In this document: piece by piece, positions 1,670 through 26,495 of the stretch
Layout of the letters: every line of letters starts with the position of its first letter
Numbering within the stretch: the stretch's first letter is position 1
IMG/VR virus record: IMGVR_UViG_3300009183_000320
Coordinates: 1 to 26,591 of that record
Origin: a virus
Strand: one strand, 5' to 3'
Length of the DNA: 26,591 bases
Notes under the pieces: model-generated
Told to the model about the DNA's origin: nothing
Seen by the model: the letters and a program-made list of their open reading frames with translations, nothing else
Database searches by the model: none
Translations under genes and position numbers: made by a program

Positions 1670-1693
1670 TCAGTATTTCGCTTAAAATATTAG

Positions 1694-1754: not shown

Positions 1755-1790
1755 TTAAATGTATAGATAAACAAACGTAAATACAACTTA

Positions 1791-2165: not shown

Positions 2166-2166
2166 T

Positions 2167-3432: not shown

Positions 3433-3434
3433 CA

Positions 3435-3953: not shown

Positions 3954-3957
3954 TATT

Positions 3958-4479: not shown

Positions 4480-4481
4480 GA

Positions 4482-4910: not shown

Positions 4911-4937
4911 CCCCAATACAACATTGCTTTTTGTGGT

Positions 4938-4949
4938 TATATAATAAAC
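4938..4949 (+). promoter_or_regulatory. TATATAA-type candidate late promoter
   Basis: TATATAATAAAC lies in the short gap before the 4956 tail gene, 6 bases ahead of the ATG. It belongs to the TATATAA family described for position 39. The short distance to the start would make a near-leaderless mRNA, which weakens the case. Confidence 0.2.
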
Positions 4950-4955
4950 AAACTT

Positions 4956-8215: not shown

Positions 8216-8226
8216 AATAAAAAATT

Positions 8227-9654: not shown

Positions 9655-9663
9655 AAATAATAT

Positions 9664-11382
9664 ATGTCAGAAATTATACCAATATACATACCAACTTATA
9701 TAAGTAATCAATCTTACGCGGCTACTAAAGTATTACCTAGATTATTATTTTATAATGGACAAGTAGATTGTGAGAAATTTTATGTACATGATGAAAATAA
9801 TTCTTCTAGAGGAGTTAATCAATTCCCTTATTTTGATAACTACAATGTAGTTACTGGTTCATTTCCAACTGTAAATTCTAAATCACTTTTGTTTAATAAT
9901 GAGGAAGCAGTTTATGGACAAACTCCAACTAATACATTATATTCAGATTATTGGGAAAAATATGTTGAATTATTATATAATCCTAGAACTAAATTATTAA
10001 ATGCATCAGCTATAATTCCTTTAGCTAATTATTTTAAAATTTCTCAAAATGATATTATTGAATTTAGAGGTAACTATTATCACTTAAGAGCAATTAATGA
10101 TTATAATTTAAGTAATGGAGAATGTTCAATACAATTATTAGGACCTATTTTACCTGATGCACTTCCATTTGTTATTCCATCTCTTAATTGTGATTATAGT
10201 TCATTAATTGTTATATGTAATACAACTACTACTTCAACTTCTACTACTAGTACTACATCAACTTCTACTACTAGTACTACATCAACTTCTACTACTTCAA
10301 CTTCAACAACTACAACAACATTAGGACCTTTATTTATTGAATATATAATTGTAGCAGGTGGTGGTTCGGGCGGAGGTTCACCACAAGAAGGACCAGGTTT
10401 ATTAAAAATGTGGCCAGGTGGTGGCGGTGGTGGACAAGTTATTACAGGAAGTATGATTGCAAATATTCCATTAACTATTGGTGTAGGTGCACAAGGACAA
10501 AATACATTCTATTTAAATAATGCTAATTTAGTACCTGCATATCCTGCAAATGTTGGATTCTTTAGTGGTAGTCATGGAAGTAAAGGGTGGCCTTCTTATA
10601 TTTCTGCTAGTACTATATATCAAATAGCACAGGGTGGTGGACAAGGTGGAACTTATAATGATAATGTTAATCAACCTGGATACCCAATTCCATTCTACCC
10701 AGGTGTTTCAACTTTAGGTGGATACCACTCAAATGGAGGAAATGGTGGTGGTGCTGCTATTGTAAGTGCTAGTAGTGCTAATTATCAAATTGTTAGTGGT
10801 GGATTATCAACAGGTGGTGGATTTAATGGAGCATGGTCTACTGGTTCTAATTCATTAACATTTGGAACTAATAATGCTGGTGGTGGAGCAGGAGCTGGTG
10901 CAAATGGTAGTGGTGCAAATGGTGGTAATGGATTCCAATGGTTAAATGGAGTATATTATGCAGGTGGAGGTGGTGGATTTACTTCAAATGGTAATTATCA
11001 AGCTGGATGTCCACAGGGATGTCCTCCTCCAACTGCAGGTACACCAGGTTTAGGTGGTGGAGGTCCATACAATACTGATGGAACTACCGGAGGTGGAGGT
11101 GGTGCTTCGTATAGTGCATTCTATCCAGCTAATGGTGGAGCAGGTTTAGTAATAATAAGATATGCAGGAACAACTCAAAGAGCAACAGGTGGAACAATAT
11201 CAACTAGTGGAGGATATACATATCATACATTCCAATCTAATTTGACTGGTGGTATTTATATAGTAGATGCAGTATCAGGTAGTAATGGAATTACTGGTGG
11301 TTATTATGGATACGACCAATCATATTACCTACAAACAGGACAATGGAGAAGTGCTTACACATCATCATTTATACCAATTTAA
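9664..11382 (+). CDS. Tail adhesin: duplicated anchor, hinge and Gly-rich domain
   Basis: A 572-residue protein. Residues 1-172 repeat the anchor domain of the previous gene with most positions identical, including VLPRLLFYNGQVDCEKFYV and YWEKYVELLYNPRT. A Thr/Ser hinge (about 186-219) leads to a glycine-rich domain (about 222-500) opening FIEYIIVAGGGSGGG and closing GGAGLVIIRYAGT; the interior has many GGGGG tracts and TIGVGAQGQ. This matches the known phage glycine-rich tail domain, in which packed polyglycine helices carry variable tip loops. The last 70 residues start ATGGTISTSGGYTYHTF, a common partner of that domain. The role is most likely receptor binding. Its start follows the previous stop by nine bases. 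Confidence 0.7.
   Translation: MSEIIPIYIPTYISNQSYAATKVLPRLLFYNGQVDCEKFYVHDENNSSRGVNQFPYFDNYNVVTGSFPTVNSKSLLFNNEEAVYGQTPTNTLYSDYWEKYVELLYNPRTKLLNASAIIPLANYFKISQNDIIEFRGNYYHLRAINDYNLSNGECSIQLLGPILPDALPFVIPSLNCDYSSLIVICNTTTTSTSTTSTTSTSTTSTTSTSTTSTSTTTTTLGPLFIEYIIVAGGGSGGGSPQEGPGLLKMWPGGGGGGQVITGSMIANIPLTIGVGAQGQNTFYLNNANLVPAYPANVGFFSGSHGSKGWPSYISASTIYQIAQGGGQGGTYNDNVNQPGYPIPFYPGVSTLGGYHSNGGNGGGAAIVSASSANYQIVSGGLSTGGGFNGAWSTGSNSLTFGTNNAGGGAGAGANGSGANGGNGFQWLNGVYYAGGGGGFTSNGNYQAGCPQGCPPPTAGTPGLGGGGPYNTDGTTGGGGGASYSAFYPANGGAGLVIIRYAGTTQRATGGTISTSGGYTYHTFQSNLTGGIYIVDAVSGSNGITGGYYGYDQSYYLQTGQWRSAYTSSFIPI
10237..10284 (+). repeat. 24-bp perfect tandem repeat coding a hinge
   Basis: Two identical 24-base units (10237-10260 and 10261-10284), followed by a partial third, encode the Thr/Ser hinge of the Gly-rich adhesin. 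The unit differs from the 27-bp unit in the neighbouring gene but uses the same ACT, TCT and AGT codon set. Confidence 0.88.
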
Positions 11383-11391
11383 TTAATAGAA

Positions 11392-12288
11392 ATGCCAAAT
11401 AGTATAACATTAACATTAGGAACACCATTAGGTAGTGATTTAGGACCTAACTTCAATCTTACAACAAATGTGGGAAGTGTAACACCTTCAACTGCAACAA
11501 GAAGTGAGTTGTTGGCTGGTAAGATTGTTAGTGTAAATGATTTAGCAACTATTATTAATGTAACATCAATTGGAAATTGTACAAATACAATAGCGCAAAC
11601 AATACCATGCGGAGGAACAACTACAACTTCTACTACTTCTACTACTTCTACTACTTCTACTACTTCTACTACTTCTACTACTTCAACATCTACAACTACA
11701 TCTACAACTACAACTACAACTGCTGCAATAAGTAATGAATTATATTATAGTGGTATCGGTCATAGTAGAGGTACAGGTAGTTTTTATAGCTCCTTACCTT
11801 CGTTCCCACCATATTGTTCGTATGGAAGTAATTGGACAACAGGTTCAACTAATATAAACTCTAGTTTTGTATGTTATTGGACAGGTAGCGTAGTAGCAAC
11901 ACCTGGTTCAACATATAATGCACCTAGAATTGTTAATGGTGTAACAGTACCAGCATTACTTTATACTCCAGGTACGGCTGCTAGCAGTGGAGGAAGTTTT
12001 TGTGTACAATCACCACTTTTTGCTACTAAAATTGAAGGTGGAGTAAGCAGTTCTCTTATAATATTCCCTAATACATCAGTTCCAGTTTCAACTGGTGGTA
12101 AAATTGAATATTGGAGTTACCCAACTTATGCTTCTGCAAACCCTAATGGATTAATGCCACAACTATATGCGATAACAGGTAGCTCTTATACGTTTACCGA
12201 TGTTTCACCATATCTACCGGTAGATAAAGTTATTCATACATTCACTTCATCAGGTAACTTCTATTATAATACATTTACATACCCATAA
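11392..12288 (+). CDS. Third hinge-bearing tail fibre/adhesin
   Basis: A 298-residue protein with a distinct small N-terminal domain (residues 1-74, with LTLGTPLGSDLGPNFNLTT and ELLAGKIVSVNDLATI), a Thr/Ser hinge at about 76-112 coded by a perfect 9-base tandem repeat, and a beta-rich C-terminal part (113-298) with many Ser, Tyr and Gly and no repeats. The N-terminal part differs from that of the two previous adhesins, so it probably docks elsewhere on the tail tip. It starts ten bases after the previous stop. The C-terminal domain is not recognised; a second receptor-binding or decoration module is likely from context. Confidence 0.6.
   Translation: MPNSITLTLGTPLGSDLGPNFNLTTNVGSVTPSTATRSELLAGKIVSVNDLATIINVTSIGNCTNTIAQTIPCGGTTTTSTTSTTSTTSTTSTTSTTSTSTTTSTTTTTTAAISNELYYSGIGHSRGTGSFYSSLPSFPPYCSYGSNWTTGSTNINSSFVCYWTGSVVATPGSTYNAPRIVNGVTVPALLYTPGTAASSGGSFCVQSPLFATKIEGGVSSSLIIFPNTSVPVSTGGKIEYWSYPTYASANPNGLMPQLYAITGSSYTFTDVSPYLPVDKVIHTFTSSGNFYYNTFTYP
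11626..11679 (+). repeat. Six perfect copies of a 9-bp tandem repeat
   Basis: The unit ACTTCTACT (Thr-Ser-Thr) occurs six times without change from 11626 to 11679, with a partial seventh copy. This is the most regular repeat in the window and prone to slippage; all changes in copy number keep the reading frame. Confidence 0.93.
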
Positions 12289-12312
12289 TCACAAATCGTT
12301 TTTAATTTGTTA

Positions 12313-12334
12313 AACATATATAAAACAATATGTT
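12313..12334 (+). other. Hairpin ending at the glycosyltransferase start
   Basis: AACATAT (12313-12319) pairs perfectly with ATATGTT (12328-12334) and the ATG follows on the next base. The loop and left arm also contain a TATATAAA string (12317-12324). It could either mask the start codon or be part of a late promoter; the stem is all A/U apart from one pair and weak. Confidence 0.35.
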
Positions 12335-13270
12335 ATGGAAAATATACGATTCATTTGCGCACAACCTGCCAATTCTTATTATACTTGGCAGGTAGAAGTA
12401 CTAATTAATAACTTTATTAAACATGGTGTTAATCCTAACCAAATTGATATCTTATGTGCAATAAACAATGATAATGTACCTGATGATTGGAGAAAACTTC
12501 AAAATCATTACAATACCGTTAGGTTCTTCTTCTACAATGACACCAGGAGTGATTTTAAGTACATTCCTGCCATTTATTTCAATTTAATGAAGAATCACCT
12601 TAAAGCACACCCAGAGCTTCAGGATGAGGTTCTTTTCCTACACGATAGTGATATCATTTTTACACGTAAACCTGAATTAGATTGGGTTCGTAAAAATAAT
12701 GTATGGAGTATGAGTGATACTAACTCATATATAAACTACGATTACATTCAACAAAAGGATAATGCTATCTACGAAAAGATGTGTGAGATAGTTGGTATTG
12801 ATAAAAGGATACCTAAATTAATGAACTCACATTCAGGTGGAGCACAATACATTATAAATGGTGAAGGTTGGGAGTTTTGGGATAAGGTAGAGAAAGATGC
12901 CATTACTATGTACGATTACTTTTGTGATATAGAACCATCATACGTTAAAAAGTTTGAAGGTGATTATCCATTACAAAAGTGGACAGCAGGTATGTGGAGT
13001 TTGTTATGGAACGCTTGGTTAGCAGGACACGAAACTAAAGTTGATGAACGGATTTCTTTTGGTTGGAGCACTGACCCGGTTGATAGAATTGATATGCACT
13101 GGATATTACATAATGCCGGTGTTACGGTTGACAATACGGATTTATTTTTTAAGGGTGCGTATATTAGTAAATTACCTTATGATGAGGTTTTACAAGTTGA
13201 TGAAAATAGAGCATCTTCGTACTATTGGAAACAGGTACAGGAAGTTGCACAAAAAACAATATTAAAATAA
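12335..13270 (+). CDS. GT-A-type glycosyltransferase
   Basis: A 311-residue soluble protein. An N-terminal nucleotide-sugar fold is followed by VLFLHDSDIIFTRKP, in which D104-S-D106 is the metal-binding DxD motif of GT-A enzymes. Further on come NSHSGGAQYII (about 164-174) and WTAGMWSLLWNAWLAGHE with DRIDMHWILHNAG (about 217-262). This order recalls plant and protist enzymes that add sugars to Ser or hydroxyproline (GT95/GT96-like), though that is from memory and the identity is distant. It sits directly downstream of three Thr/Ser-rich adhesins and is translationally coupled to a methyltransferase (TAATG). Modification of virion proteins or of host surface glycans are both possible; DNA glucosylation looks less likely. 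Confidence 0.65.
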   Translation: MENIRFICAQPANSYYTWQVEVLINNFIKHGVNPNQIDILCAINNDNVPDDWRKLQNHYNTVRFFFYNDTRSDFKYIPAIYFNLMKNHLKAHPELQDEVLFLHDSDIIFTRKPELDWVRKNNVWSMSDTNSYINYDYIQQKDNAIYEKMCEIVGIDKRIPKLMNSHSGGAQYIINGEGWEFWDKVEKDAITMYDYFCDIEPSYVKKFEGDYPLQKWTAGMWSLLWNAWLAGHETKVDERISFGWSTDPVDRIDMHWILHNAGVTVDNTDLFFKGAYISKLPYDEVLQVDENRASSYYWKQVQEVAQKTILK

Positions 13271-13803
13271 TGCCACATTCATATCATTACGGAAAAGCTG
13301 AAGCAATTGAGTTTATACAAAAAAACACTACACCTGAATCTAAAATATTAGATGTAGGTCCTGGTGTAGGAACTTATGCAGATTATTTAAAACCATTAGG
13401 TTACCACATAGATGGATTAGAAATCTATGATGGTTATATAGATGCATACAATCTATCAGAAAAATATAAAAATATATACATTGGAGATATTGTAACTTAC
13501 GATATATCTGATTATGATTTTGTAATAATTGGTGATGTGTTAGAACATCTTACAATTGAAGATTCACATAATGTGTTGAGTAGATGTAAGAATGTATTAG
13601 TAGCAGTACCTTATATATGTCCGCAAGGTGGTGTAGATTTTTATCATAATGAACATCATTTGATAAATCCATATGAAGCACATCAGCAATCAGATTTAAC
13701 ACCATTAGAAATGCTTACACGATATCCAAGTTTAGGTTTGGTATGGAGTAATCATTTATATGGTTATTACTCAAACATTAAATGGAACGGATATTATGCA
13801 TAA
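13270..13803 (+). CDS. Class I SAM-dependent methyltransferase
   Basis: A 177-residue Rossmann-fold methyltransferase. Motif I is ILDVGPGVGTYADYL (about 26-40), the acidic end of strand 2 is E51 in DGLEIYD, and motif IV-like FVIIGDVLEHL is at 84-94. An in-frame ATG 45 bases upstream exists, but the start at 13270 overlaps the glycosyltransferase stop by one base, gives a clean N-terminus (MPHSYHYGKAEAIEF) and is preferred. The VLEHL pattern is common in enzymes that methylate sugars or small molecules in surface polysaccharide pathways. Coupled to the glycosyltransferase before it and the methyltransferase after it. The substrate is unknown. Confidence 0.72.
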   Translation: MPHSYHYGKAEAIEFIQKNTTPESKILDVGPGVGTYADYLKPLGYHIDGLEIYDGYIDAYNLSEKYKNIYIGDIVTYDISDYDFVIIGDVLEHLTIEDSHNVLSRCKNVLVAVPYICPQGGVDFYHNEHHLINPYEAHQQSDLTPLEMLTRYPSLGLVWSNHLYGYYSNIKWNGYYA

Positions 13804-14410
13804 ATTAGAAGAAACATTTACGGAAATATATGAAAAGAACTTATGGCAATCTGCTGAAAGTGTTAGCGGATTAGGTTCTGAAATGGAATACGCAAAATCA
13901 ATTAGTAAGGAATTACCTGTGTTATTACAAAAGTATAACATAAAATCTATTTTAGATATTCCATGTGGAGATTGGAATTGGATAAAGAACGTTGATTTAT
14001 GTGGAGCATCTTATATAGGTGCAGATATTGTTAAACCTTTAATTGAGGAAAACAAAATCAAATACCCTGGTGTAGATTTTAGAGCATTAGATTTAACATC
14101 AGATGATTTACCTAAAGTTGATTTGGTATTTGTTAGAGATTGTTTTGGACACTTAACAAATGAAAAAGTACACAAATCATTAGATAACATAAAGAGAAGT
14201 GGCAGTAAATACCTACTTGCAACCTCATTTACTCGTTGGAATACTAATCCTGATATAGTGGATGGTGGTTGGAAATGCATTAATTTGCTAATTGAACCAT
14301 TTAATTTAAAACCTGTTTACTTAATAAATGAGGAATTTGAGGTAGGATACCCTCATTATAACGATAAATGCATGGTATTATTTGAATTGATACCCACTAA
14401 CAAACCCTAA
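13796..14410 (+). CDS. Second class I SAM-dependent methyltransferase
   Basis: A 204-residue methyltransferase starting at the ATG that overlaps the previous stop by eight bases (an upstream in-frame ATG at 13760 lies well inside the previous gene and is less likely). Motif I is SILDIPCGDWNWIKNV (about 51-66), strand 2 ends in YIGADIV with D77, and the motif IV region is LVFVRDCFGHLT (about 110-121). The D-I-P-C-G-D motif and RD...HL pairing match a family of phage and bacterial methyltransferases near glycan genes. Its sequence is not closely similar to the first methyltransferase, so this is not a tandem duplication. Probably acts in the same modification pathway as its two upstream neighbours. 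Confidence 0.7.
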   Translation: MHKLEETFTEIYEKNLWQSAESVSGLGSEMEYAKSISKELPVLLQKYNIKSILDIPCGDWNWIKNVDLCGASYIGADIVKPLIEENKIKYPGVDFRALDLTSDDLPKVDLVFVRDCFGHLTNEKVHKSLDNIKRSGSKYLLATSFTRWNTNPDIVDGGWKCINLLIEPFNLKPVYLINEEFEVGYPHYNDKCMVLFELIPTNKP

Positions 14411-14428
14411 TAAACGTGTTATACAGTT

Positions 14429-14578
14429 ATGATAAAGGTAGTAATTGATTTATTAAATGTTGGTGATTATTATGGAATGAGTGAAAGTGTTGATTTTGCC
14501 AAAGGTAGACATCAATATCCTTCAACTATAAATCATATTAAATTGTTACTTAAACGAGTTTGGAAAAGTAAAAAATAG
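14429..14578 (+). CDS. Small basic protein of 49 residues, unknown
   Basis: An ATG at 14429 opens a 49-codon frame that ends at TAG, two bases before the tape measure ATG. The product starts MIKVVIDLLNVGDYYGMSE and ends with a Lys/Arg-rich helix (INHIKLLLKRVWKSKK). The tight fit between two genes, the A/T-rich third codon positions and the lack of another use for this 170-base gap support it as coding. Position before the tape measure could suggest a tail assembly factor, but no frameshift arrangement like the lambda G/GT pair is seen. No family is recognised. Confidence 0.5.
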   Translation: MIKVVIDLLNVGDYYGMSESVDFAKGRHQYPSTINHIKLLLKRVWKSKK

Positions 14579-14580
14579 AT

Positions 14581-16443
14581 ATGGCAGATAATACAACCAC
14601 ATACACCGCCGTAATTGAAACTGAAGTAAAAGGTACGGATGAAGTAGAACAATTAGGTGATGAAGCTGAAAAAGCTGATGGGAAGTTTAAATCCCTTCGT
14701 ACTCAAATTAGAGAAACTACAATAAAACTTCAGGAGTTAGCAGATAAAGGACAGGAGGGTACTAAAGAATTCAAAAAGTTATCCAATCAATTAGATGAAT
14801 TAGGAGATAAACAAAAGAAAGTTGCTTTCCAATCAGGACAAATTGAAGATAAATTAGCAGCTCTACCAGGACCTATTGGTGCAATTGGTAAAGGTTTTCA
14901 AACTGCAAAAGGTGCAGTTGATACATTTGGTGTAAGATTGGCAATTGCAACAGGTGGTATAACACTTATCATTGGTGCAATTATCGCAATGAAGGATGCA
15001 TTAGGTAAGAGTGAGCAAGGACAGGCTACATTAAATAAAGTAACTGATGCATTCTCTAAACTATTAGCACCATTATTAACAATGGTTTCTGCAGTAGCAA
15101 TTCCTACATTTGAATTCTTTGCAAAGGTAATTAATAAGGTAGCAGATGCTGCTGAATGGGTTGCAACTAAATTAGGATTTACTAAAAAATCAATAGATGG
15201 ATTTAATCAATCAGCAAAAGATGCACAAAAAGCATTCTATGAACAAGCTGAAAAAGATTTAGAGGAAGCAAAACGTGTAGCTGATGTATATAAAGCAATT
15301 GATGAGAAGAATAAAGCAGCAGCGTTAGCAAGACAAAAAGCACATCAGGAGAAATTAGATAAAGCAGCAGAGGAGAAAAAGAAGAAAGATGAAGAAGCTA
15401 AAAAGATAGCAGATGCTGGAAACAAAGTATTAGTTGATGCATATATAGCTACCTTATCTCAAAGAGACCAGGATATATACAACGCTGGTATCAAACAAAA
15501 TGAAAGATTATTAGCATTAGATAAAGCTGGTATAACTGATAAAACATCCGTATTAGAACAGGGTAGAATAGAGGTTGCAGCAATTAATAAGAAATACGAT
15601 GATGAGGCTGCTAAAGCAGTTGAGGATGCTAAGAAGAAGAAAGCAGATGAAGATAAGAAAGCAGAAGATGATAAGAAAGCAAAAGGAGAGAAAGATAGAG
15701 AAGATGATTTATTAGGTTTACAAAACAAAATAGATTTTGATAATAATACGTTCCAACAAAAGAAAGATTTAATAACTGCGCAAGAGCAAGTATTATTATC
15801 TAATCAGGAACTTACTGAAAATCAAAGAACTCAAATTTCTCAACAAGCTGCTCAACAAAGAAAAGCAATTGATGAAGCTGAAAGAGATGCGAAAGCAGAA
15901 ATACTATTAGCACAAATTGATTTAGTTGGACAGTTTGGTTCATTGATGCAACAAATTGCAGGTAAGAATAAGAAGTTAGCAATCGCAGGTGTTATCGTAC
16001 AACAAGCTGCAGCTATTGGTTCTATTATTGCAAATACTGCAATTGCAAATGCAAAAGCAGCCGCTGCGTTTCCTTTAACATTAGGACAACCTTGGGTAAC
16101 AATTAATACAATATCGGCAGCATTAGGTGTTGCATCAACAATAGCTAGTGCAGCAAAATCAATACAACAAATTAATAGTAGTGATAACGCAACATCAGTT
16201 AGTGGAGGAGGAGCAAGTTTACCAAACAATGCTATGACACCACCAACCGCACCATCAGTAGCAGGAGCTGCTGCACCGATAATACAGGGAACACAATCTG
16301 CAACACCAGGTGCACAAATTGCATCAACACTTGCTCAAACATCAGGAAAACCCGTTAAGGCGTATGTAGTTTCAGGAGATATAAGTTCACAACAGGCGCT
16401 TGATAGAAGAACATCAAACTCTGCTACCTTTGGTGGGTACTAA
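14581..16443 (+). CDS. Tape measure protein
   Basis: A 620-residue protein that sets tail length and is ejected with the DNA. It shows an N-terminal coiled coil (about 20-90: EVEQLGDEAEKADGKFKSLR and onward), a hydrophobic segment at about 120-140 (ATGGITLIIGAIIAMKDAL), a second at about 161-181 (LLAPLLTMVSAVAIPTFEFF), a long Lys/Glu/Ala-rich helical middle (about 215-390, with KKKKADEDKKAEDDKKA), a Gln-rich helix, and a hydrophobic Ala-rich C-terminal region (about 465-530). At about 0.15 nm per residue the predicted tail is roughly 90 nm. It lies after the adhesin and glycosylation genes rather than before the tail-tip genes, which is unusual. Confidence 0.85.
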   Translation: MADNTTTYTAVIETEVKGTDEVEQLGDEAEKADGKFKSLRTQIRETTIKLQELADKGQEGTKEFKKLSNQLDELGDKQKKVAFQSGQIEDKLAALPGPIGAIGKGFQTAKGAVDTFGVRLAIATGGITLIIGAIIAMKDALGKSEQGQATLNKVTDAFSKLLAPLLTMVSAVAIPTFEFFAKVINKVADAAEWVATKLGFTKKSIDGFNQSAKDAQKAFYEQAEKDLEEAKRVADVYKAIDEKNKAAALARQKAHQEKLDKAAEEKKKKDEEAKKIADAGNKVLVDAYIATLSQRDQDIYNAGIKQNERLLALDKAGITDKTSVLEQGRIEVAAINKKYDDEAAKAVEDAKKKKADEDKKAEDDKKAKGEKDREDDLLGLQNKIDFDNNTFQQKKDLITAQEQVLLSNQELTENQRTQISQQAAQQRKAIDEAERDAKAEILLAQIDLVGQFGSLMQQIAGKNKKLAIAGVIVQQAAAIGSIIANTAIANAKAAAAFPLTLGQPWVTINTISAALGVASTIASAAKSIQQINSSDNATSVSGGGASLPNNAMTPPTAPSVAGAAAPIIQGTQSATPGAQIASTLAQTSGKPVKAYVVSGDISSQQALDRRTSNSATFGGY

Positions 16444-16451
16444 TATATACA

Positions 16452-16461
16452 TATATATAAC
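16452..16461 (+). promoter_or_regulatory. TATATATAAC candidate late promoter
   Basis: TATATATAAC at 16452-16461, preceded by ATATATAC at 16443-16450, lies in the 48-base gap before the protease gene. The same two elements in the same order occur at 19549-19570 before the small-RNA candidate, which is why it is listed. Chance is possible in such AT-rich DNA. Confidence 0.3.
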
Positions 16462-16491
16462 TAAATAACCTAACTAAATTGTTAAAGTATT

Positions 16492-17229
16492 ATGAAAGAA
16501 GATTTACTATATGAGCTAACGATAGAAGATGAAAATGATTTTATCTATGCAATATCAATGGTTACTGAACCCGCTATTGAAAGTAATTGGATTTACTTTG
16601 GTAAGGAGAAAGTTCAGTTAGCTAAATTAGATGATGAAAAGAGATTAGTATTAGGTGCAATCCTTATACCAAATAAAAATATCCTGAGGTTGGACGGTGA
16701 GGGTAACCCTTATCATGTGTTTATAAAACCAGAAACAATCAAAAGATTATCAGAAATTTATTTGGAAAAAAAATATACTGATGCAGTAACTATTGAGCAT
16801 GAAAGAACTGTTGATGATATCACATTAGTTGAATCATGGATAGTAGAAGATACTAAAAGAGATAAATCAGCAGTGTATGGTTTATCATTACCTAAAGGAA
16901 CTTGGGCGGGTACGATGCACGTTAAGAATGAGAAGGTGTGGAATGATTATGTAAAAACAGGAATCTTATCGGGATTCTCAATTGAAGGCATATTTTCCCA
17001 TCAGTTAGTTAAGAACTCAAAAGAACCTGCTTATCTTAAAAAAGAAATTAGTGATTTAACTGATGAAGAAGCTAAACAATTATTAGCTACAATACATTCA
17101 CTTTTAATAGATGATGTTAAGTTAGAACAACCTTCAGTTAATAGTACATATGCAGGTGAAGGACCTGATGATAAAAAGAAAAATAAAAAAGATTACACAC
17201 ATCCTGCATTAGTGGGAACAAAAAAATAA
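16492..17229 (+). CDS. Prohead protease, XkdF/S78-like
   Basis: A 245-residue serine protease of the XkdF-like (Peptidase_S78_2) type that would trim the head scaffold and capsid arms. Visible landmarks: ISMVTEPAIESNWIYF (about 21-36), LVLGAILIPNKNILRLD (52-68), the catalytic-type His in TIEHERT (H103), VESWIVED (113-120), and LSGFSIEG (159-166) with the likely nucleophile S163. The C-terminal 50 residues are Lys-rich and may be a cleaved tail. It lies about 15 kb from the capsid gene, whereas these are usually adjacent. Three bases separate it from the DUF5856-like gene. Confidence 0.8.
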   Translation: MKEDLLYELTIEDENDFIYAISMVTEPAIESNWIYFGKEKVQLAKLDDEKRLVLGAILIPNKNILRLDGEGNPYHVFIKPETIKRLSEIYLEKKYTDAVTIEHERTVDDITLVESWIVEDTKRDKSAVYGLSLPKGTWAGTMHVKNEKVWNDYVKTGILSGFSIEGIFSHQLVKNSKEPAYLKKEISDLTDEEAKQLLATIHSLLIDDVKLEQPSVNSTYAGEGPDDKKKNKKDYTHPALVGTKK

Positions 17230-17232
17230 TAT

Positions 17233-17598
17233 ATGGCAAGCATAGTAGAAATCGTATCATATTTTAATTCAGCTAAACAACAAGCAATTGTATGGCATCA
17301 ACAAACAACTGAATTAGGAGAGCATGAAGCTTTAGAAAAATTTTATGATGAAATTGTAGATTTATTAGATGAATTAAGTGAAAGTTATGCCGGCATATAT
17401 GGTAGATTAAAAGGATACGATGTACATGATTTAGCAGATTGGACATCAACTGAAGATACAATTACATATTATAAAAATTGTTATAGTTGGTTACAAACTG
17501 AAAGAACATCAGCACCGCAAGATAGTTGGATTCAAAACCAATTAGATGAGATTGCACAATTGTTAGGACAAACACTTTATAGATTAACTCTTAAATAA
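17233..17598 (+). CDS. DUF5856/Dps-like helical protein
   Basis: A 121-residue, all-helical acidic protein with WHQQTTELGEHEALEKFYDEIVDLLDELSESYAGIYGRLKGY. The spacing of HQQT, EHEALEKFYDEIVDLLDEL and the later helix NQLDEIAQLLGQTLYRL is that of the DUF5856 family known from large tailed phages, which resembles ferritin/Dps four-helix bundles. Potential metal ligands are His and Glu in the first and second helices (GEHEAL, YDEIVD). Lying between the prohead protease and two small proteins with a shared leader, it may be a head-internal or DNA-associated protein. The family match is from memory. Confidence 0.6.
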   Translation: MASIVEIVSYFNSAKQQAIVWHQQTTELGEHEALEKFYDEIVDLLDELSESYAGIYGRLKGYDVHDLADWTSTEDTITYYKNCYSWLQTERTSAPQDSWIQNQLDEIAQLLGQTLYRLTLK

Positions 17599-17616
17599 TG
17601 TACGCAACATTATAAT

Positions 17617-17973
17617 ATGAATCATAATTTAGTACATAAAAAATTACAACAATTTGAATCTTATTCTGATTACCCTGATGGTGTGAAAGGAAATGCAAAG
17701 AGAGCATTAGAGTATGCAGATAAGAATGGTTGGGGTAGTTGTGGAACTCCTGTTGGTAAACAAAGAGCAAATCAATTAGCTAACGGAGAACCTATTTCAG
17801 TAGATACAATCCAAAGAATGTATTCATTTTTAAGTAGACATGAAGGTGATTTAGTATCATCTAAATCATATGGAGATGGTTGTGGTAAACTTATGTATGA
17901 TGCATGGGGTGGAAAAGCAGCATTAGGTTGGAGTAGAAATAAACTTAGACAATTAGGATTACTAAATGAATAA
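17617..17973 (+). CDS. Small phage protein with GWGSCGTPVGKQRANQLA module
   Basis: A 118-residue protein. After a short leader (MNHNLVHKKLQQFES) comes a compact module (18-115): DYPDGVKGNAKRALEYADKNGWGSCGTPVGKQRANQLANGEPIS, then IQRMYSFLSRHEGDL, then GCGKLMYDAWGGKAALGW. I recall this module as a stand-alone protein or as a domain attached to phage head or protease proteins; its function is unknown to me. The leader resembles that of the next gene (MNNNIVHKNILKF). It overlaps the next gene by eight bases. Confidence 0.6.
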   Translation: MNHNLVHKKLQQFESYSDYPDGVKGNAKRALEYADKNGWGSCGTPVGKQRANQLANGEPISVDTIQRMYSFLSRHEGDLVSSKSYGDGCGKLMYDAWGGKAALGWSRNKLRQLGLLNE

Positions 17974-18292
17974 TAATATAGTACATAAAAACATTCTTAA
18001 GTTTGCTATAAACGAAGTATCACTTAATCAATTTGAAATATGGTTAGGTGAAACATCATCAGATGAACCTATGTATATATGGTGGAGAACAAACGAAGGT
18101 AACAATAGAAGATACTCTATGTATTGGGATAGTGCTGCGTATGTAGGTGGTAATGCTGGAGGTAGTGATACAAAAGCTGCAGAAGGTATGTGGAACTTAC
18201 AGGGTGATTATCCTAGAGGAGATTGGAGAACATTAGATACCAATACCGTAACACGCTTTAGTTGGAAAGGTAAGGCGTATCGTATAGGTTAA
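17966..18292 (+). CDS. Small protein sharing the N-terminal leader, unknown
   Basis: A 108-residue protein beginning MNNNIVHKNILKFAINE, a near repeat of the first 13 residues of its upstream neighbour, joined to a quite different body rich in Trp, Tyr and Gly (WWRTNEGNNRRYSMYWDSAAYVGG, DWRTLDTNTVTRFSWKGKAYRIG). The body looks like a small beta-barrel. It overlaps the previous gene by eight bases and its stop codon overlaps the stop of the convergent sigma-like gene by four bases. Function unknown. Confidence 0.6.
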   Translation: MNNNIVHKNILKFAINEVSLNQFEIWLGETSSDEPMYIWWRTNEGNNRRYSMYWDSAAYVGGNAGGSDTKAAEGMWNLQGDYPRGDWRTLDTNTVTRFSWKGKAYRIG

Positions 18293-20617: not shown

Positions 20618-21376
20618 TTAAAGTGTATTTAGATAGGTTTCTAAATCAGTTATCTCTTTCTTATCTCTAAGGTATCTCTCTAAAAGGGATTCGTAATCTC
20701 TACTAAATGTACCCTCAAACACTTTCTTTTTGTGTGTTAGGTAATCACCTAATAATAACCCTTCCGCAAACTCTTTTGTGATATCAAACTTTTGTTTTAC
20801 CTTAGTGTACACATACTCTAACCAATCTTTGTAGTAAGTACTTTCTCTCCATCCATCAATAAGTTTACTTCTAACATCCGCATGAGATTCTAATGATTCA
20901 TCCTCATTGTATTCCCAATATAAGGTATCTACTAACCTATAACATTTGTGTATGTTACCCCTCTCAACACCTTCGTAAACGATATTTAATGAATCACATA
21001 ACTTTTGGTGTTTCTCATTACCTAAATTGTAAAGTGTTTCTGATAGATACTCATTGAAATTATGAACTAAAACACCAGTAATCACTCTACCTAAGAATGG
21101 TTTTCTGATATCACATACATTGAAATCATCTTTCTCACCAACAATGTAATATGTTTCTACTACATCCATATTACGGATATCCGAAGTATCATACATATCA
21201 TCCATTACATACCCAACAACATCATTTTTTATTGATAGTTGTGAACGTAATTCTTTTAATTCCTCATCTATGTAAGAATACAATGGGGAATTTGAATACG
21301 ATTTGTTGTATTCGTTTAAATCAAATGTACCTTTTTTGATAGTGAAAGGTGTAACACTTTTCGTTGATTTACTCAT
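20618..21376 (-). CDS. Early protein of 252 residues, unknown
   Basis: Translation from the ATG at 21376 (after AACGTT) gives MSKSTKSVTPFTIKKGTFDL and a 252-residue, Tyr- and charge-rich, mostly helical protein (ELKELRSQLS, KLCDSLNIVYEGVERGNIHK, DWLEYVYTKVKQKFDITKEF, LLERYLRDKKEITDLETYL). A longer in-frame start at 21433 would lie within the promoter's -7 box and is rejected. It is the first gene behind the 21433-21464 promoter. No membrane span, signal or catalytic motif is seen. Probably early; function unknown. Confidence 0.62.
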   Translation of the reverse strand: MSKSTKSVTPFTIKKGTFDLNEYNKSYSNSPLYSYIDEELKELRSQLSIKNDVVGYVMDDMYDTSDIRNMDVVETYYIVGEKDDFNVCDIRKPFLGRVITGVLVHNFNEYLSETLYNLGNEKHQKLCDSLNIVYEGVERGNIHKCYRLVDTLYWEYNEDESLESHADVRSKLIDGWRESTYYKDWLEYVYTKVKQKFDITKEFAEGLLLGDYLTHKKKVFEGTFSRDYESLLERYLRDKKEITDLETYLNTL

Positions 21377-21432: not shown

Positions 21433-21464
21433 TAAAGATACGATAAACTACTCATATTTCCAAA
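21433..21464 (-). promoter_or_regulatory. Early promoter cassette copy 1
   Basis: Minus strand: TTTG (21464-21461), 20-base spacer containing ATGAGTAGTTT, then TATCTTTA (21440-21433). The spacer sequence itself is conserved in the copies at 22419 and 23150. The expected leader before the 21376 start is about 50 bases and holds a 6-bp hairpin. Confidence 0.8.
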
Positions 21465-21489
21465 TAATTGATAAACTATTTTACACATT

Positions 21490-21498
21490 TTATCCACA
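21490..21498 (+). promoter_or_regulatory. DnaA-box-like TTATCCACA
   Basis: Exact match to the bacterial DnaA-box consensus. It lies 26 bases from the -33 box of promoter copy 1, the same distance as the box at 23207 from promoter copy 3. The surrounding CACATTTTATCCACATTT is shared by both. Confidence 0.5.
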
Positions 21499-21503
21499 TT
21501 TTC

Positions 21504-21530
21504 ATAACTCATTGATTATCAGCACTTTAC
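21504..21530 (-). repeat. 27-bp element, copy 1
   Basis: A 27-base element with core ATTGATTATCAGCA. It lies 40 bases upstream of the -33 box of promoter copy 1. Other copies are at 22522, 22562 and 23221. The centre TGAT-T-ATCA is a dyad, as expected for a site bound by a dimeric regulator. Confidence 0.6.
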
Positions 21531-21585
21531 ATATATACCCCTTTTTAACCGATTTAAGGAGGGGTGGGGGTTCTTTGGATGGATA

Positions 21586-21636
21586 CCCCTATAACCAAAA
21601 GATAGGGGAAATTAGGGGTATTTCTACCCCTTTTTT
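21586..21636 (+). terminator. Paired GC-rich hairpins with plus-strand terminator
   Basis: Two hairpins sit side by side: CCCCTAT/ATAGGGG (21586-21592 with 21602-21608), then AGGGGTA/TACCCCT (21614-21620 with 21625-21631) with a TTTC loop and a T-run to 21636. The T-run serves plus-strand transcripts, although the gene that ends here (21648) is on the minus strand; on that strand the hairpins have no U-tract. It may be bidirectional or stop antisense transcription. Confidence 0.55.
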
Positions 21637-21647
21637 ACCCCTACTTA

Positions 21648-22145
21648 CTATGAATTCCAATCCACTACCTTATCCATTTTCTTAAGTGATTCAGTTAAAT
21701 CCGAATCCTTTCGTACATACTCTACAAATTTTAAGGTTTTCATTACCATCTCCAATGGGTTTCTTTTGAAACACTCACTCCATTCGTTGATAGTTTTAGT
21801 ATCTTTATCCATTAGGGATTTTGTAAGGAACATTGTAACTACAAATATCTCTCTCTCCATAATTTTCTCTTTGAAGATAGGATACTCTTTTGATAAAGAA
21901 CTTCTGGTATCATCTATGAATTGTGAAAACACACCACTTTGTAACATTTCAATAATGAATTCAAATATCTTATCATTTGATTGAGTTAATACTTTTGTTT
22001 GGAGTACCGCAAAATCCTCATCGGTTAAACCCTCTTTACAAATTGATTCCAATTTGTTCATCATTGGTACATAATCACTCTTAACTTTGTACACATTCTT
22101 TTTTGTGTTTTTGGTAGTAGTACTACCTTTTCTTTTCTTACTCAT
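21648..22145 (-). CDS. Basic-tailed helical early protein, unknown
   Basis: A 165-residue protein opening with a strongly basic tail (MSKKRKGSTTTKNTKKNVYK), then mostly helices (KLESICKEGLTDEDFAVLQ, DKIFEFIIEMLQSGVFSQFI, LEMVMKTLKFVEYVRK). The basic N-terminus could contact nucleic acid. The start is preceded by the shared leader end AACGTT. It is the second gene behind the promoter at 22419. No family is recognised. Confidence 0.6.
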   Translation of the reverse strand: MSKKRKGSTTTKNTKKNVYKVKSDYVPMMNKLESICKEGLTDEDFAVLQTKVLTQSNDKIFEFIIEMLQSGVFSQFIDDTRSSLSKEYPIFKEKIMEREIFVVTMFLTKSLMDKDTKTINEWSECFKRNPLEMVMKTLKFVEYVRKDSDLTESLKKMDKVVDWNS

Positions 22146-22176
22146 AACGTTGTTTTTTTTTGTTATTGTTTATTGT

Positions 22177-22365
22177 TTATTTTTGAATGATTGAATCTAT
22201 TTGTGATAATATCCACATTTTTCTAAAAGAGATATTAGCCCATTGCTCCATATCCTCATTGGTTAATGTACTTGGTTTCTTACTATCTAATTCAGATAAG
22301 ATGTTTTCGGTTTTTCTTAAATTTACGTTTAACCACTCTACTAATTGTTTTTCTACGTTCGTCAT
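22177..22365 (-). CDS. Small helical early protein of 62 residues
   Basis: A 62-residue protein (MTNVEKQLVEWLNVNLRKTE...WILSQIDSIIQK) of two or three amphipathic helices. It directly follows promoter copy 2 (ATG about 50 bases from the predicted transcription start) and the A-rich leader AAACAAACAATT. A plus-strand frame over the same bases lacks such signals and is rejected. Function unknown. Confidence 0.6.
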   Translation of the reverse strand: MTNVEKQLVEWLNVNLRKTENILSELDSKKPSTLTNEDMEQWANISFRKMWILSQIDSIIQK

Positions 22366-22418
22366 AATTGTTTGTTTTTTTATTTATGGTTGAAGAATAC
22401 CCTCAACCTTTATATACC

Positions 22419-22450
22419 CAAAGATAGGTGAAACTACTCATAATTCCTAA
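22419..22450 (-). promoter_or_regulatory. Early promoter cassette copy 2
   Basis: Minus strand: TTAG (22450-22447) in place of TTTG, 20-base spacer containing ATGAGTAGTTT, then a perfect TATCTTTG (22426-22419). The leader that follows forms a 6-bp hairpin (GGTTGA with TCAACC), as in copy 1. Confidence 0.78.
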
Positions 22451-22491
22451 TTATTTGGTAACTATTTTTGATATATTTTTATTTATAATGT

Positions 22492-22504
22492 GTAACTGAT
22501 TGAT
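22492..22504 (-). repeat. Half copy of the 27-bp element
   Basis: GTAACTGATTGAT at 22492-22504 is identical to the first half of the copy at 22522, exactly 30 bases away, and lies 42 bases upstream of the -33 box of promoter copy 2. The second half has diverged. Confidence 0.5.
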
Positions 22505-22514
22505 ACTCAATAAA

Positions 22515-22862
22515 CTATTTTGTAACTGATTGATTATCAGCAGGTTGCATATTCTCATAATCTAACTCATTGATTATCAATGGACTATGTTTTGGGTACA
22601 CTTTAGTAGGGTTTTCATACTCTACCTCAACACCACTATAAGCCCTACCCAAATCAGTACCTAAACTCTTTAATCCTATTATAATACCATTTTGGATATT
22701 GATTGCAGTAAAGAACTTTGAATCAGTTTCGTACTCACCATTCTCATACTTCTCTTTTATTTCACACTTCTTTTGAATAGCTAACCAAATCTGATGTTTG
22801 ATATACATTTGGATGTGTGGTATTCTAACCACTTTTATTGTTGTTGCTTGTAACGTTTTCAT
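22515..22862 (-). CDS. Early protein of 115 residues, unknown
   Basis: A 115-residue protein (MKTLQATTIKVVRIPHIQMY...) with a beta-rich start, a helix (QIWLAIQKKCEIKEKYENGE) and a middle strand (IQNGIIIGLKSLGTDLGRAYSG). The C-terminal codons overlap two copies of the 27-bp element (22522 and 22562), so this reading frame shares its 3' end with regulatory sequence of the next cassette. Expressed from the promoter at 23150 after the 22871 gene. Family not recognised. Confidence 0.58.
   Translation of the reverse strand: MKTLQATTIKVVRIPHIQMYIKHQIWLAIQKKCEIKEKYENGEYETDSKFFTAINIQNGIIIGLKSLGTDLGRAYSGVEVEYENPTKVYPKHSPLIINELDYENMQPADNQSVTK
22522..22548 (-). repeat. 27-bp element, copy 2
   Basis: Starts GTAACTGATTGATTATCAGC and ends GGTTGC. 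It matches the palindrome at 23221 in length and in most positions, including the TTGAT-N-ATCA core and the GTTGC end. It overlaps the last codons of the 22515 gene. Confidence 0.6.
22562..22588 (-). repeat. 27-bp element, copy 3
   Basis: Contains the perfect dyad CATTGAT-T-ATCAATG (22568-22582 region) 40 bases from copy 2, inside the 22515 coding sequence. The outer arms are less conserved. Confidence 0.5.
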
Positions 22863-22870
22863 ATTTTATA

Positions 22871-23101
22871 TTATTTTATTTTACCTTCTCTTTTGTTTAT
22901 TAAAAATTGTTGATACTTCTTCTCAATACCATTTAACCTTTCGTTATTTTCGGGCAACCATTCACCACGTCTTACCCATCCTCTCATTACTGAAATCATA
23001 CCTTCGTTAAAAGCACCATCAAAATACATTGGTGAATACTCATCTAAAAACTCAATGTAAGAGTTCATTCGTTTAATTTGTTTTTGTGTTAATTTTTCCA
23101 T
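22871..23101 (-). CDS. First leftward early protein, unknown
   Basis: A 76-residue protein (MEKLTQKQIKRMNSYIEFLD...) that opens with a basic helix, has a central segment with SPMYFDGAFNEGMISVMRGWVRRG, and ends Lys-rich. It is the first gene of the leftward early unit, with its ATG about 45 bases from the start predicted for promoter copy 3 and preceded by AACGTT. Small size, position and early promoter suggest a host-takeover type protein, but this is inference. Family not recognised. Confidence 0.58.
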   Translation of the reverse strand: MEKLTQKQIKRMNSYIEFLDEYSPMYFDGAFNEGMISVMRGWVRRGEWLPENNERLNGIEKKYQQFLINKREGKIK

Positions 23102-23149
23102 AACGTTTGTTAGTTGTAGGTAACCACCCTTTTAATTGTTTGATATATG

Positions 23150-23181
23150 TAAAGATAGGTAAAACTACTCAATATTCCTAA
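23150..23181 (-). promoter_or_regulatory. Early promoter cassette copy 3
   Basis: Minus strand: TTAG (23181-23178), 20-base spacer containing TTGAGTAGTTTTACC, then TATCTTTA (23157-23150). It is divergent from the plus-strand promoter at 23275, with the 27-bp palindrome between them. Confidence 0.78.
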
Positions 23182-23206
23182 TTATTTAGGTACTTTTTTC
23201 CACATT

Positions 23207-23215
23207 TTATCCACA
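23207..23215 (+). promoter_or_regulatory. DnaA-box-like TTATCCACA
   Basis: A second exact TTATCCACA, 26 bases from the -33 box of promoter copy 3 and preceded by another CCACATT. It lies within the control region upstream of the initiator-like gene. Confidence 0.5.
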
Positions 23216-23220
23216 TTTGT

Positions 23221-23247
23221 GCAACTAGTTGATAATCAATGAGTTGC
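23221..23247 (+). promoter_or_regulatory. 27-bp palindromic operator-like site (element copy 4)
   Basis: GCAACT (23221-23226) and AGTTGC (23242-23247) form the outer arms and TTGAT-A-ATCAA (23229-23239) the centre of a 27-base dyad; only two pairs fail. It lies 40 bases upstream of the leftward -33 box and 28 bases upstream of the rightward -33 box, a natural place to control both promoters. Confidence 0.65.
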
Positions 23248-23274
23248 ATATTAGGTAAAATAAACCCTATTTTA

Positions 23275-23306
23275 TTTGGTAGTTTTAGATATTCTTCGTA
23301 TCTTTG
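23275..23306 (+). promoter_or_regulatory. Rightward early promoter, near-leaderless
   Basis: TTTG (23275-23278), 20-base spacer, TATCTTTG (23299-23306): a perfect host-type match. The ATG of the initiator-like gene begins five bases after the -7 box, so transcription would start at or next to the start codon. The spacer resembles that of the 23765 promoter (GGTAGTTT near the start, TTCG at the end). Confidence 0.85.
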
Positions 23307-23310
23307 TTAA

Positions 23311-23760
23311 ATGAAAGGAAACTTTACACAAATATCTAATGAGTTAATGAGGTGTATTAACTTAACTCCTACTGAAAAATCTTTATTAGTTATACTATAT
23401 GGGTTACCTAAAACATTTGTAATACGAAAGGAAATACTGCACAAACTATATGGGTTTGGTGTTACACAATTAGATACTGCATGGAAAGGTTTAAAGAAAA
23501 AAGGTTTTATTATTTCAAAAAGATTACCTTCAAATGGTAAGTTTAATAATTGGAAACACACCATCAATATTACACCAGTAGGTTTTACACCCATAGGTTT
23601 TACACCCATCCAAAACATATCCATTAAAGAAGATTGTAACCCAGGTAATATTTTAAATAAAAAGATTAACAGTTCCCAGGATACTGCTTCCCAGGGTATT
23701 GCTGATATTGATATTGAGAAATCTTTTGCTGATATAAAAAAGATTTTAAATAATTATTAA
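23311..23760 (+). CDS. Winged-helix replication-initiator-like protein
   Basis: A 149-residue protein. Residues 1-85 (FTQISNELMRCINLTPTEKS, then LLVILYGLPKTFVIRKEILH, then LDTAWKGLKKKGFIISKRL) have the layout of the winged-helix N-terminus of phage replisome organisers and DnaD-like initiators: F-T-Q-I-x-N, helix, helix, then a wing of KKKGFI...R. The rest is low in structure and carries a five-residue repeat (TPVGF, TPIGF, TPIQN) coded by three 15-base DNA repeats. It is the first gene of the rightward unit behind a strong early promoter. A role in starting phage replication is likely; a transcription regulator is the alternative. Confidence 0.62.
   Translation: MKGNFTQISNELMRCINLTPTEKSLLVILYGLPKTFVIRKEILHKLYGFGVTQLDTAWKGLKKKGFIISKRLPSNGKFNNWKHTINITPVGFTPIGFTPIQNISIKEDCNPGNILNKKINSSQDTASQGIADIDIEKSFADIKKILNNY
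23568..23612 (+). repeat. Three 15-bp direct repeats (iteron-like)
   Basis: Units at 23568-23582, 23583-23597 and 23598-23612 share the core TTACACC and mostly TTTTACACCCAT. An AT-rich stretch (TAATATTTTAAATAAAAAG) follows from about 23645. Two further short direct repeats TTCCCAGG lie at about 23672-23697. Repeats plus an AT-rich stretch inside an initiator gene recall the lambda origin within gene O. The repeat also makes a five-residue protein repeat, so a purely protein-level reason is possible. Confidence 0.5.
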
Positions 23761-23764: not shown

Positions 23765-23796
23765 TTTGGTAGTTTCAGTTTTTATTCGTATCTTTG
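23765..23796 (+). promoter_or_regulatory. Second rightward early promoter
   Basis: TTTG (23765-23768), 20-base spacer, TATCTTTG (23789-23796), only four bases after the stop of the initiator-like gene. The spacer shares GGTAGTTT, AG and TTCG positions with the 23275 promoter. Predicted leader to the 23819 ATG is about 17 bases. Confidence 0.83.
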
Positions 23797-23818
23797 TTAA
23801 ACAATTAAATTATATAAT

Positions 23819-25199: not shown

Positions 25200-25746
25200 A
25201 TTAACTTTAGAGCAAATATTAAAAGAGAACAACAGGAGATTAGATATACTATGTAAAACTAAACACACCTGGTTGCTTAAAGCAGCATACAACATAACGA
25301 AGAATGCAGATGTATCAGATGATTTAGTTTCTGAACTTTATTTATATATTGCGGAGAGGGGTAATCAAAATATATGGTATGGTAAGAACGAATTCAATAT
25401 GATGTATCTGCATTCTTATTTGCGTACACGTTGGATAAACCTAATTAAGAAAGCATCTAAAACTGAAAAGATATCAGATGATTGGGATACCGTTGATGAG
25501 GAGTATGATATAGATTTAGATATGAAGATACAAGCTACCTACGATGAAGTAGTAGATGAGATACAACAATTACAAAAAACAAAGATGTGGGGTTCAGCAA
25601 GGTTAGCAGAGTTATATCTCTTTAACGATGAGATGACGTTGGACAAACTATCTAAAGAGATTGGTATAAGCAAATCTACTTCGTTCTTAAATGTACGCAA
25701 GATTAAGCAACACATAAGAAACACCAAAGTAAATCCTTTCCGTTAA
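25186..25746 (+). CDS. Second sigma-factor-like protein
   Basis: A 186-residue protein. Residues 28-90 (TWLLKAAYNITKNADVSDDL, then SELYLYIAERG, then YLHSYLRTRWINLIKK) resemble the region 2 fold of small sigma factors, with the acidic DDLVSELY helix and the basic aromatic YLRTRWINLIKK helix. Residues about 147-180 (EMTLDKLSKEIGISKSTSFL) form a helix-turn-helix as in region 4. Overall length and order fit an ECF-like sigma of phage type. It lies in the rightward early unit and its stop overlaps the Mom-like start. Together with the 18289 protein it gives two sigma-like genes, perhaps for successive gene sets. Confidence 0.6.
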   Translation: MHESKLTLEQILKENNRRLDILCKTKHTWLLKAAYNITKNADVSDDLVSELYLYIAERGNQNIWYGKNEFNMMYLHSYLRTRWINLIKKASKTEKISDDWDTVDEEYDIDLDMKIQATYDEVVDEIQQLQKTKMWGSARLAELYLFNDEMTLDKLSKEIGISKSTSFLNVRKIKQHIRNTKVNPFR

Positions 25747-26495
25747 TGGAGTTAAGAGAGATACCATTAAAGATAGCAAACGAATTAATCGTAAGGAACT
25801 ATTGGACACATAAGATATCTAAACCACCGAAATATAGTTTGGGGATTTATATTGATGGAGATATTAAAGGTGTTATACAATTAGGTTGGGGAGTTAATCC
25901 AAAAGAAACACAAAAGAAAGTTAAGGGAACAAAGGAAGGAGAGTGGTTAGAGTTAGTTAAGATGTGGACAGCAAATGAAGTACCACCAAATACAGGAAGT
26001 AAAGCAATGGGTTTAATGTTCCAATGGATAAGAGATAATCAACCTGATATAAAATGGTTAATTACATTCGCAAACGGAGCAGCAGGACATGTAGGTACAC
26101 AATATCAAGCGAGCAATTGGATATATACGGGATACAATAAGGTAGGAGGAATGTGGGTAACAAAAGAAGGAGAGATGATACACAACCTAACACTAATGTA
26201 TAACGATAAGATACCTAACACAAAGAGAGAAACATTAGAGAGCATATTTGGTAAACCCCTTTATAGAGTAGTGGGTGGACAGTTTAGATACTTTTATTTT
26301 ATACACAAAGCAGAAAGGAAGAACCTCACTTTAGATGAACTACCATACCCAAAGCAAAGGGATTTAAAAGATTACATAGAGATATTAGATGCGAACTGGG
26401 AAGGACCTAAACCACTTTGGGATGAAGTAGCAGGATGTATCCGTAATAGAGCAGAAACATGGCATGCTTCAACGATAAATACAATATGGTGGTAG
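25746..26495 (+). CDS. Mom-like DNA adenine modification protein
   Basis: A 249-residue protein of GNAT-like layout. The N-terminal part (ANELIVRNYWTHKISKPPKYSLGIYIDGDIKGVIQLGWG) has the first strand-helix of Mom-type proteins, in which Y, H and K residues lie before G-x-Y-x-x-G. WLELVKMWTAN and a helix follow, then LITFANGAAGHVGTQYQAS (106-124) and NWIYTGYNKVGG, the most diagnostic segment of the family. Phage Mu Mom converts adenine in DNA to a carbamoylmethyl form that blocks many restriction enzymes. A Mom-like role in protecting this phage's DNA is thus likely but not proven. One base overlaps the sigma-like gene. Confidence 0.68.
   Translation: MELREIPLKIANELIVRNYWTHKISKPPKYSLGIYIDGDIKGVIQLGWGVNPKETQKKVKGTKEGEWLELVKMWTANEVPPNTGSKAMGLMFQWIRDNQPDIKWLITFANGAAGHVGTQYQASNWIYTGYNKVGGMWVTKEGEMIHNLTLMYNDKIPNTKRETLESIFGKPLYRVVGGQFRYFYFIHKAERKNLTLDELPYPKQRDLKDYIEILDANWEGPKPLWDEVAGCIRNRAETWHASTINTIWW

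Follow-up and report, generated by a model that had tools for sequence, protein, structure and literature searches.

The DNA analysed here, hereafter the window, is one complete IMG/VR virus record; it is 26,591 bp long and has 32% GC. Judged by its portal protein, which has a relative in Nonlabens phages, and by its promoter type, the source is a tailed phage of Bacteroidota. The closest cultured phages by portal protein are the Nonlabens phages P12024S/L (33% identity), and a megablast of the window against named phages gave no match. Two blocks of genes, 74 to 18,292 and 23,311 onward, are read rightward, and the genes between them leftward. None of the leftward ORFs was assigned to a family in a Pfam search, and the putative transcription start sites lie about 45-53 nt from the start codons of leftward ORFs. 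The genes of the region are as follows.

20618-21376, minus strand: leftward early ORF, 252 aa, behind promoter 1
21648-22145, minus strand: leftward early ORF, 165 aa, behind promoter 2
22177-22365, minus strand: leftward early ORF, 62 aa, behind promoter 2
22515-22862, minus strand: leftward early ORF, 115 aa, no family
22871-23101, minus strand: first of the leftward early ORFs, 76 aa, with its start codon about 45 nt from putative start site 3, no family
23311-23760, plus strand: rightward ORF, DnaD-like helicase loader / replication initiation protein, 149 aa (phrog_186, 1.7e-6)

Further along, a Mom-like DNA modification protein is encoded at 25746-26495 (PF25680, 2.6e-49). Several CCCCT / AGGGG runs in inverted order, possibly terminators, lie at 21531-21645, between the ORF at 21648-22145 and the first of three promoter cassettes. 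These cassettes (copies 1 to 3) and the divergent promoter beside copy 3 comprise the features listed below, where palindrome distances are counted to position -1 and L181, L182 and L183 are related phages.

21433-21464, minus strand: leftward promoter 1, TTTG (-33) GAAATATGAGTAGTTTATCG TATCTTTA (-7); conserved in L181
21479-21498, plus strand: DnaA-box-like pair of copy 1, TTTTACACA (21479-21487) and TTATCCACA (21490-21498), 11 bp apart
21504-21530, no strand: palindrome of copy 1, candidate bend site, ATAACTCATTGATTATCAGCACTTTAC; centre 21517; distance 88 (about -89)
22419-22450, minus strand: leftward promoter 2, TTAGGAATTATGAGTAGTTTCACC TATCTTTG (-7); -33 is TTAGG, not TTTG; orthologue L183_b
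22492-22518, no strand: promoter-proximal palindrome of copy 2, GTAACTGATTGATACTCAATAAACTAT; centre 22505; distance 90 (about -91)
22522-22548, no strand: second palindrome upstream of promoter 2, GTAACTGATTGATTATCAGCAGGTTGC; centre 22535 (about -121); within the 3' end of the ORF at 22515-22862; conserved in L183 at 6356
22562-22588, no strand: third palindrome upstream of promoter 2, CTAACTCATTGATTATCAATGGACTAT; centre 22575
23150-23181, minus strand: leftward promoter 3, TTAGGAATATTGAGTAGTTTTACC TATCTTTA (-7); orthologues L182_a and L183_a
23196-23215, plus strand: DnaA-box-like pair of copy 3, TTTTCCACA (23196-23204) and TTATCCACA (23207-23215), 11 bp apart
23221-23247, no strand: palindrome of copy 3, near perfect, GCAACTAGTTGATAATCAATGAGTTGC; common to leftward promoter 3 (distance 88) and the divergent rightward promoter (distance 76)
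23275-23306, plus strand: divergent rightward promoter, TTTGGTAGTTTTAGATATTCTTCGTATCTTTG; conserved in L183

All three leftward promoters carry GAGTAGTTT-N4-TATCTTT on the minus strand (21434-21453, 22420-22439 and 23151-23170). With up to two mismatches allowed, this pattern has exactly three matches in the window against 0.04 expected, and none beyond the three promoters, which bears out the first-pass annotation in its proposal of three leftward promoters with a common -7 box and spacer. Sigma-ABfr promoters of Bacteroidota have the form TTTG / TAnnTTTG (PMC7366714). The further claim that both boxes are common to the copies holds for the -7 box, which is TATCTTT in 3/3 promoters (the final G of TAnnTTTG is present in copy 2 only and is A in copies 1 and 3), but not for the -33 box, which is TTTG in copy 1 only and TTAGG in copies 2 and 3. 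Identity is 74% between copies 1 and 3 over 102 nt and 71% between copies 1 and 2 over a shifted 102 nt. Among 595 loci, the GAGTAGTTT spacer pattern is found in this phage group only, plus one stray match in L043. A related form, TTTGGTAGTTT, with TAGTTT directly after the -33 box, occurs in 40/673 promoter-like matches of the loci and is perhaps an extended -33 element; a promoter at 9947-9965 of L182 shows both spacer forms (TTTGGTAGTTTCAGTAGTTTTTCGTATCTTTA). The rightward promoters at 23275-23311 and 23765-23801 of the window are 89% identical over 37 nt.

A 27-base element had been placed 40, 42 and 40 bases upstream of the -33 boxes of copies 1, 2 and 3, and it was located there in each case. 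Beyond what had been described, the two halves of this 27-mer form a near-perfect palindrome, RYAACTNNTTGATWATCAANNAGTTRY; a further two (centres 22535 and 22575) are present in copy 2, so that three stand in a row. The palindromes of copies 1-3 score 29.5, 30.0 and 33.0, that of copy 3 being the best; five sites in the window reach at least 29.5, as compared to 0.0 sites at 28 or above in shuffled windows.

Between palindrome and promoter, the 9-mer TTATCCACA was recovered in copies 1 and 3 where it had been reported, and it proved to be one member of a pair whose two members lie 11 bp apart. The pair, TTTTNCACA-NN-TTATCCACA, occurs twice in the window and not at all in 200 Markov shuffles. 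Six matches to the DnaA-box consensus TTWTNCACA are present in the window, four of which make up the two pairs, and by sequence alone these are candidate boxes. Such a pair also lies between palindrome and promoter in L181_a, L182_a and L183_a, and is absent from copy 2, from L183_b and from the cassettes with spacings of 67 and 77. The reading of copy 2 as holding a decayed 9-mer is not supported, since no recognisable copy is present there (6/9 in alignment) and the orthologue L183_b also lacks it. Among the loci examined, the pair at fixed spacing is confined to this phage group. One or two TTATCCACA 9-mers lie near palindrome and promoter in the apparently unrelated phages L120, L568 and L009.

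The regulatory module is kept in related phages, as the first-pass annotation had supposed for a repeated module. Apart from a near copy of the window phage (L180), it is present in L181, L182 and L183, whose homologues of the 252-aa protein are 86%, 46% and 44% identical, respectively. The palindrome lies at distances of 88 in L181, of 88, 67, 89 and 77 in L182, and of 88, 90 and 76 in L183, giving for the window group 88, 88, 88, 88, 88, 90, 90, 89, 67, 77 and 76, with rightward promoters at 75-76. In phages with 44-46% protein identity, the conserved columns concentrate in the palindrome arms, the spacer and the -7 box.

The palindrome itself extends far beyond this group. The pattern AACTNNTTGATWATCARNNRGTT was found in at least 119 stretches of IMG/VR. 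Outside the search pattern, T at -12 and A at +12 are conserved symmetrically (about 80-85%), and thus the true motif is approximately RTAACTNATTGATWATCAATNAGTTAY. Among crAss-like phages it is present in L339 (2995), L342 (2710), L341 (1611) and L340 (2322); in Carjivirus communis and crAssphage ZA it is intergenic, just upstream of the replication gene repL, with no clear promoter phasing. P12024S has one weak palindrome without a clear promoter. In genome contigs, the strict palindrome was found in Bacteroidota, Fibrobacter, Lentisphaeria and one further bacterium, against zero for the reversed control. Chromosomal palindromes are almost always intergenic, and their arrangement with a promoter is rare (5/198 Bacteroidota genomes). 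The MAG Microscillaceae Prado074 (G012; loci L185-L262 in part) has 120 exact TAACTNNTTGATWATCAANNAGTTA copies, of which all classed ones are intergenic, with variable flanks. A reading of the palindrome as a phage attachment site was rejected, a tyrosine integrase being undetectable in 39/40 palindrome phages examined and the sole match lying about 69 kb from the site. The description of the module as phage-built therefore stands for the spacer motif and the fixed-spacing DnaA-box pair, which are group-specific, but not for the 27-mer, which is found across Bacteroidota phages and chromosomes; given this spread, the common regulator is probably a host protein.

The palindrome stands at promoter distances one DNA turn apart in many unrelated phages. 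In loci picked by the palindrome alone, TTTG/TAnnTTTG promoters point away from it in 17 cases versus 4 towards it, six of them at exactly 67. A separate scan of IMG/VR for the palindrome core together with a Bacteroidota-type promoter, at any gap of 20-50, gave more than 119 stretches, while a control palindrome of the same composition gave 19 in the whole collection; this control is imperfect, as the core is a commoner coding word, and the argument therefore rests on the statistics of phase and arm. Among the matches listed, 86 independent sites show peaks at 66-68, 78-79 and 87-89 (near 67, 78 and 88 bp), and no sharp peaks were seen beyond 90 bp. With TAnnTTTG at -12 to -5 (PMC9723704), the palindrome centres come to lie at about -68, -79 and -89. 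In the independent subset of the matches listed, the promoter-proximal arm AGTT is present in 16/49 in-phase and 1/37 off-phase sites; the p-values for arm versus phase (Fisher, 6e-4) and for the in-phase excess (binomial, 9e-8) are only indicative, since the phase windows were set after the histogram had been viewed. The association of arm with phase is the stronger point because AGTT lies outside the search pattern. When the palindrome-chosen loci are added to the matches listed, 22/23 arm-bearing sites are in phase, with a best period of about 10.5-10.75 bp. The cassettes of the window (88, 90 and 88) and its divergent rightward promoter (76) all fall within 2 bp of the scan peaks.

Each half of the palindrome fits the IHF consensus, published as WATCAANNNNTTR (PMC10380432) and as WATCARNNNNTTR (PMC8421141). 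Copy 3 agrees with WATCAANNNNTTR perfectly on either strand; copies 1 and 2 do so on the half that is proximal to the promoter. The palindrome core TTG-N5-CAA has by sequence the geometry of the lambda H' site, TTG-CTTAT-CAA-N4-TTG, as read from the letters of the lambda genome, where two kinks flank this centre. Full palindromes have a second consensus half where the IHF A-tract would be, and one-armed in-phase sites are A/T-rich, not clearly A-tracts. We consider the 27-mer to be most likely the target of an IHF-type protein that bends DNA. BHFa is an IHF-like factor of Bacteroides, and Arg46 of IHF-beta reads TTR. A DNABII protein with an IHF-beta-like Arg46 (RGFGSF) was found in 11/12 palindrome-bearing genomes examined, including Bacteroides, Pedobacter, Xanthomarina, Hymenobacter and Fibrobacter; the residue before GFGSF is Ser in IHF-alpha and Val in HU of E. 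coli. A homodimer, which has Arg46 on either side, should favour sites that have TTR on both sides, as the palindrome does. No DNABII (HU/IHF) protein was found in a search of the phages. Matches to PF00216 (DNABII-like) number 15 in Bacteroides clarus (G001) and 19 in Parabacteroides faecalis (G011). A KEGG-annotation survey scored Bacteroidota as without IHF (PMC3940949). Two observations count against the IHF reading: the palindrome exceeds ordinary IHF sites in length and strictness, and the genome with most palindromes (the 120 of G012) gave no Arg46 DNABII match, which makes another regulator possible, although this MAG may be incomplete.

From the observed sequences, their conservation and their phasing we infer the binding protein, the bending, the activation and the role of DnaA as follows. 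Each cassette would consist of a Bacteroidota-type promoter (-33/-7) of the primary sigma factor and, about 88 bp upstream of it, a site for an architectural activator. A host IHF-type DNABII homodimer on the 27-bp palindrome would bend the DNA sharply. Because the palindrome lies on one helix face (its distances from the start being about 67, 78 or 88 bp), this bend would bring upstream DNA against RNA polymerase and stimulate initiation. That a host protein of the IHF/HU type, probably an Arg46 homodimer, bends the DNA in phase and so aids RNA polymerase at the early promoters is the account we favour with moderate confidence. IHF and DnaA boxes act jointly at oriC and datA (PMC10380432), so DnaA may be a second input in copies 1 and 3, where two DnaA-box-like 9-mers one helical turn apart, between bend and promoter, could let it join or tune the complex. 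Within the promoter, the GAGTAGTTT spacer would be an element specific to this phage group and may serve as an operator. The lack of a canonical TTTG -33 box in copies 2 and 3 and of sharp peaks beyond 90 bp counts against this explanation. A wider formulation, which we put forward tentatively, is that an undescribed dyad-reading regulator found throughout the phylum, be it a new protein or a DNABII homodimer that has become specialised, could be the general early-promoter activator of virulent Bacteroidota phages, acting at about -68, -79 and -89 in phase with the helix, with DnaA as second input in this group.

It is doubtful, yet deserves weight, that the palindrome is instead the site of an undescribed dimeric, sequence-specific Bacteroidota activator other than a DNABII protein, which would contact RNA polymerase from one helix face and whose site the phages adopted. 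The sites of dimeric regulators are typically long, strict palindromes whose N positions vary, the 120-copy genome lacks an Arg46 DNABII match, and helical phasing is equally expected of a contacting activator; however, both halves and the 11-bp core geometry agree with IHF, and contact from -89 would itself need looping or bending. We think it unlikely that the module is mainly a replication-origin element, a bend site with DnaA boxes beside a replication initiator gene, and that transcription is a by-product. The DnaA-box pairs with their 11-bp separation and the cooperation of IHF with such boxes at oriC and datA would suit an origin, as would the start of the DnaD-like gene 64 bp from the copy 3 palindrome, the crAssphage palindrome upstream of repL and a local minimum of the cumulative GC skew near 23 kb, although this skew also tracks gene direction. 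Against it, the three copies are dispersed and each feeds a leftward gene, the promoter phasing is left unexplained, and most palindrome phages lack DnaA boxes nearby, with no general enrichment near palindromes in phages (6 observed, 3.9 expected) or genomes (3 versus 4.1). Recent gene-plus-promoter duplications that have yet to diverge, with no common regulation, would account for the 71-74% identity of copies 1/3 and 1/2 over about 100 nt, but are highly improbable given the clustering of conserved columns in the arms of the palindrome, the spacer and the -7 box of phages whose protein identity is 44-46%, and given that the palindrome keeps its helical phase at 67, 77 and 88 in L182.

Little is known of transcription start in Bacteroidota phages. 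Palindrome and phasing together provide a testable rule for phage promoters of this phylum, as well as a site that its IHF-like proteins may bind; crAss-like phages with the palindrome can join such a test. Promoters that are strong and tunable in laboratory Bacteroidota could be a further gain from them.

Among known systems, the three promoters resemble those of Sigma-ABfr in the -7 TAnnTTT and in spacing (PMC7366714), and differ in the final A of the -7 box (copies 1 and 3), the missing -33 TTTG (copies 2 and 3) and the conserved GAGTAGTTT spacer. The candidate IHF-type site of copies 1 and 3, spaced from DnaA-box-like 9-mers, resembles the pairing of IHF site and DnaA boxes at oriC, datA and DARS2 of E. 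coli (PMC10380432), but here the arrangement is attached to phage promoters. Lambda attP H' is like the 27-mer in its TTG-N5-CAA-N4-TTG geometry and unlike it in being one-sided, having an A-tract and serving recombination. A literature search, with most subscription journals outside its coverage, found no account of the motif in this sense. The earlier statement that the module has no described equivalent needs qualifying, as phage early promoters with an IHF site upstream are the closest described case. In lambda pL the IHF site lies near -86, and Giladi et al. in 1998 (cited in PMC1784095) reportedly described it together with a distant UP element; no IHF consensus was found in lambda pL at one mismatch or fewer. 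Like pL, the cassettes have a leftward phage early promoter that would be stimulated by an upstream IHF-type bend site, here a candidate at about -89; unlike pL, they have a palindromic site, a Bacteroidota -33/-7 promoter, three copies and added DnaA-box-like pairs. Since IHF-stimulated phage promoters are already known, the novelty lies in a palindromic IHF-like site at three helically phased positions across Bacteroidota phages.
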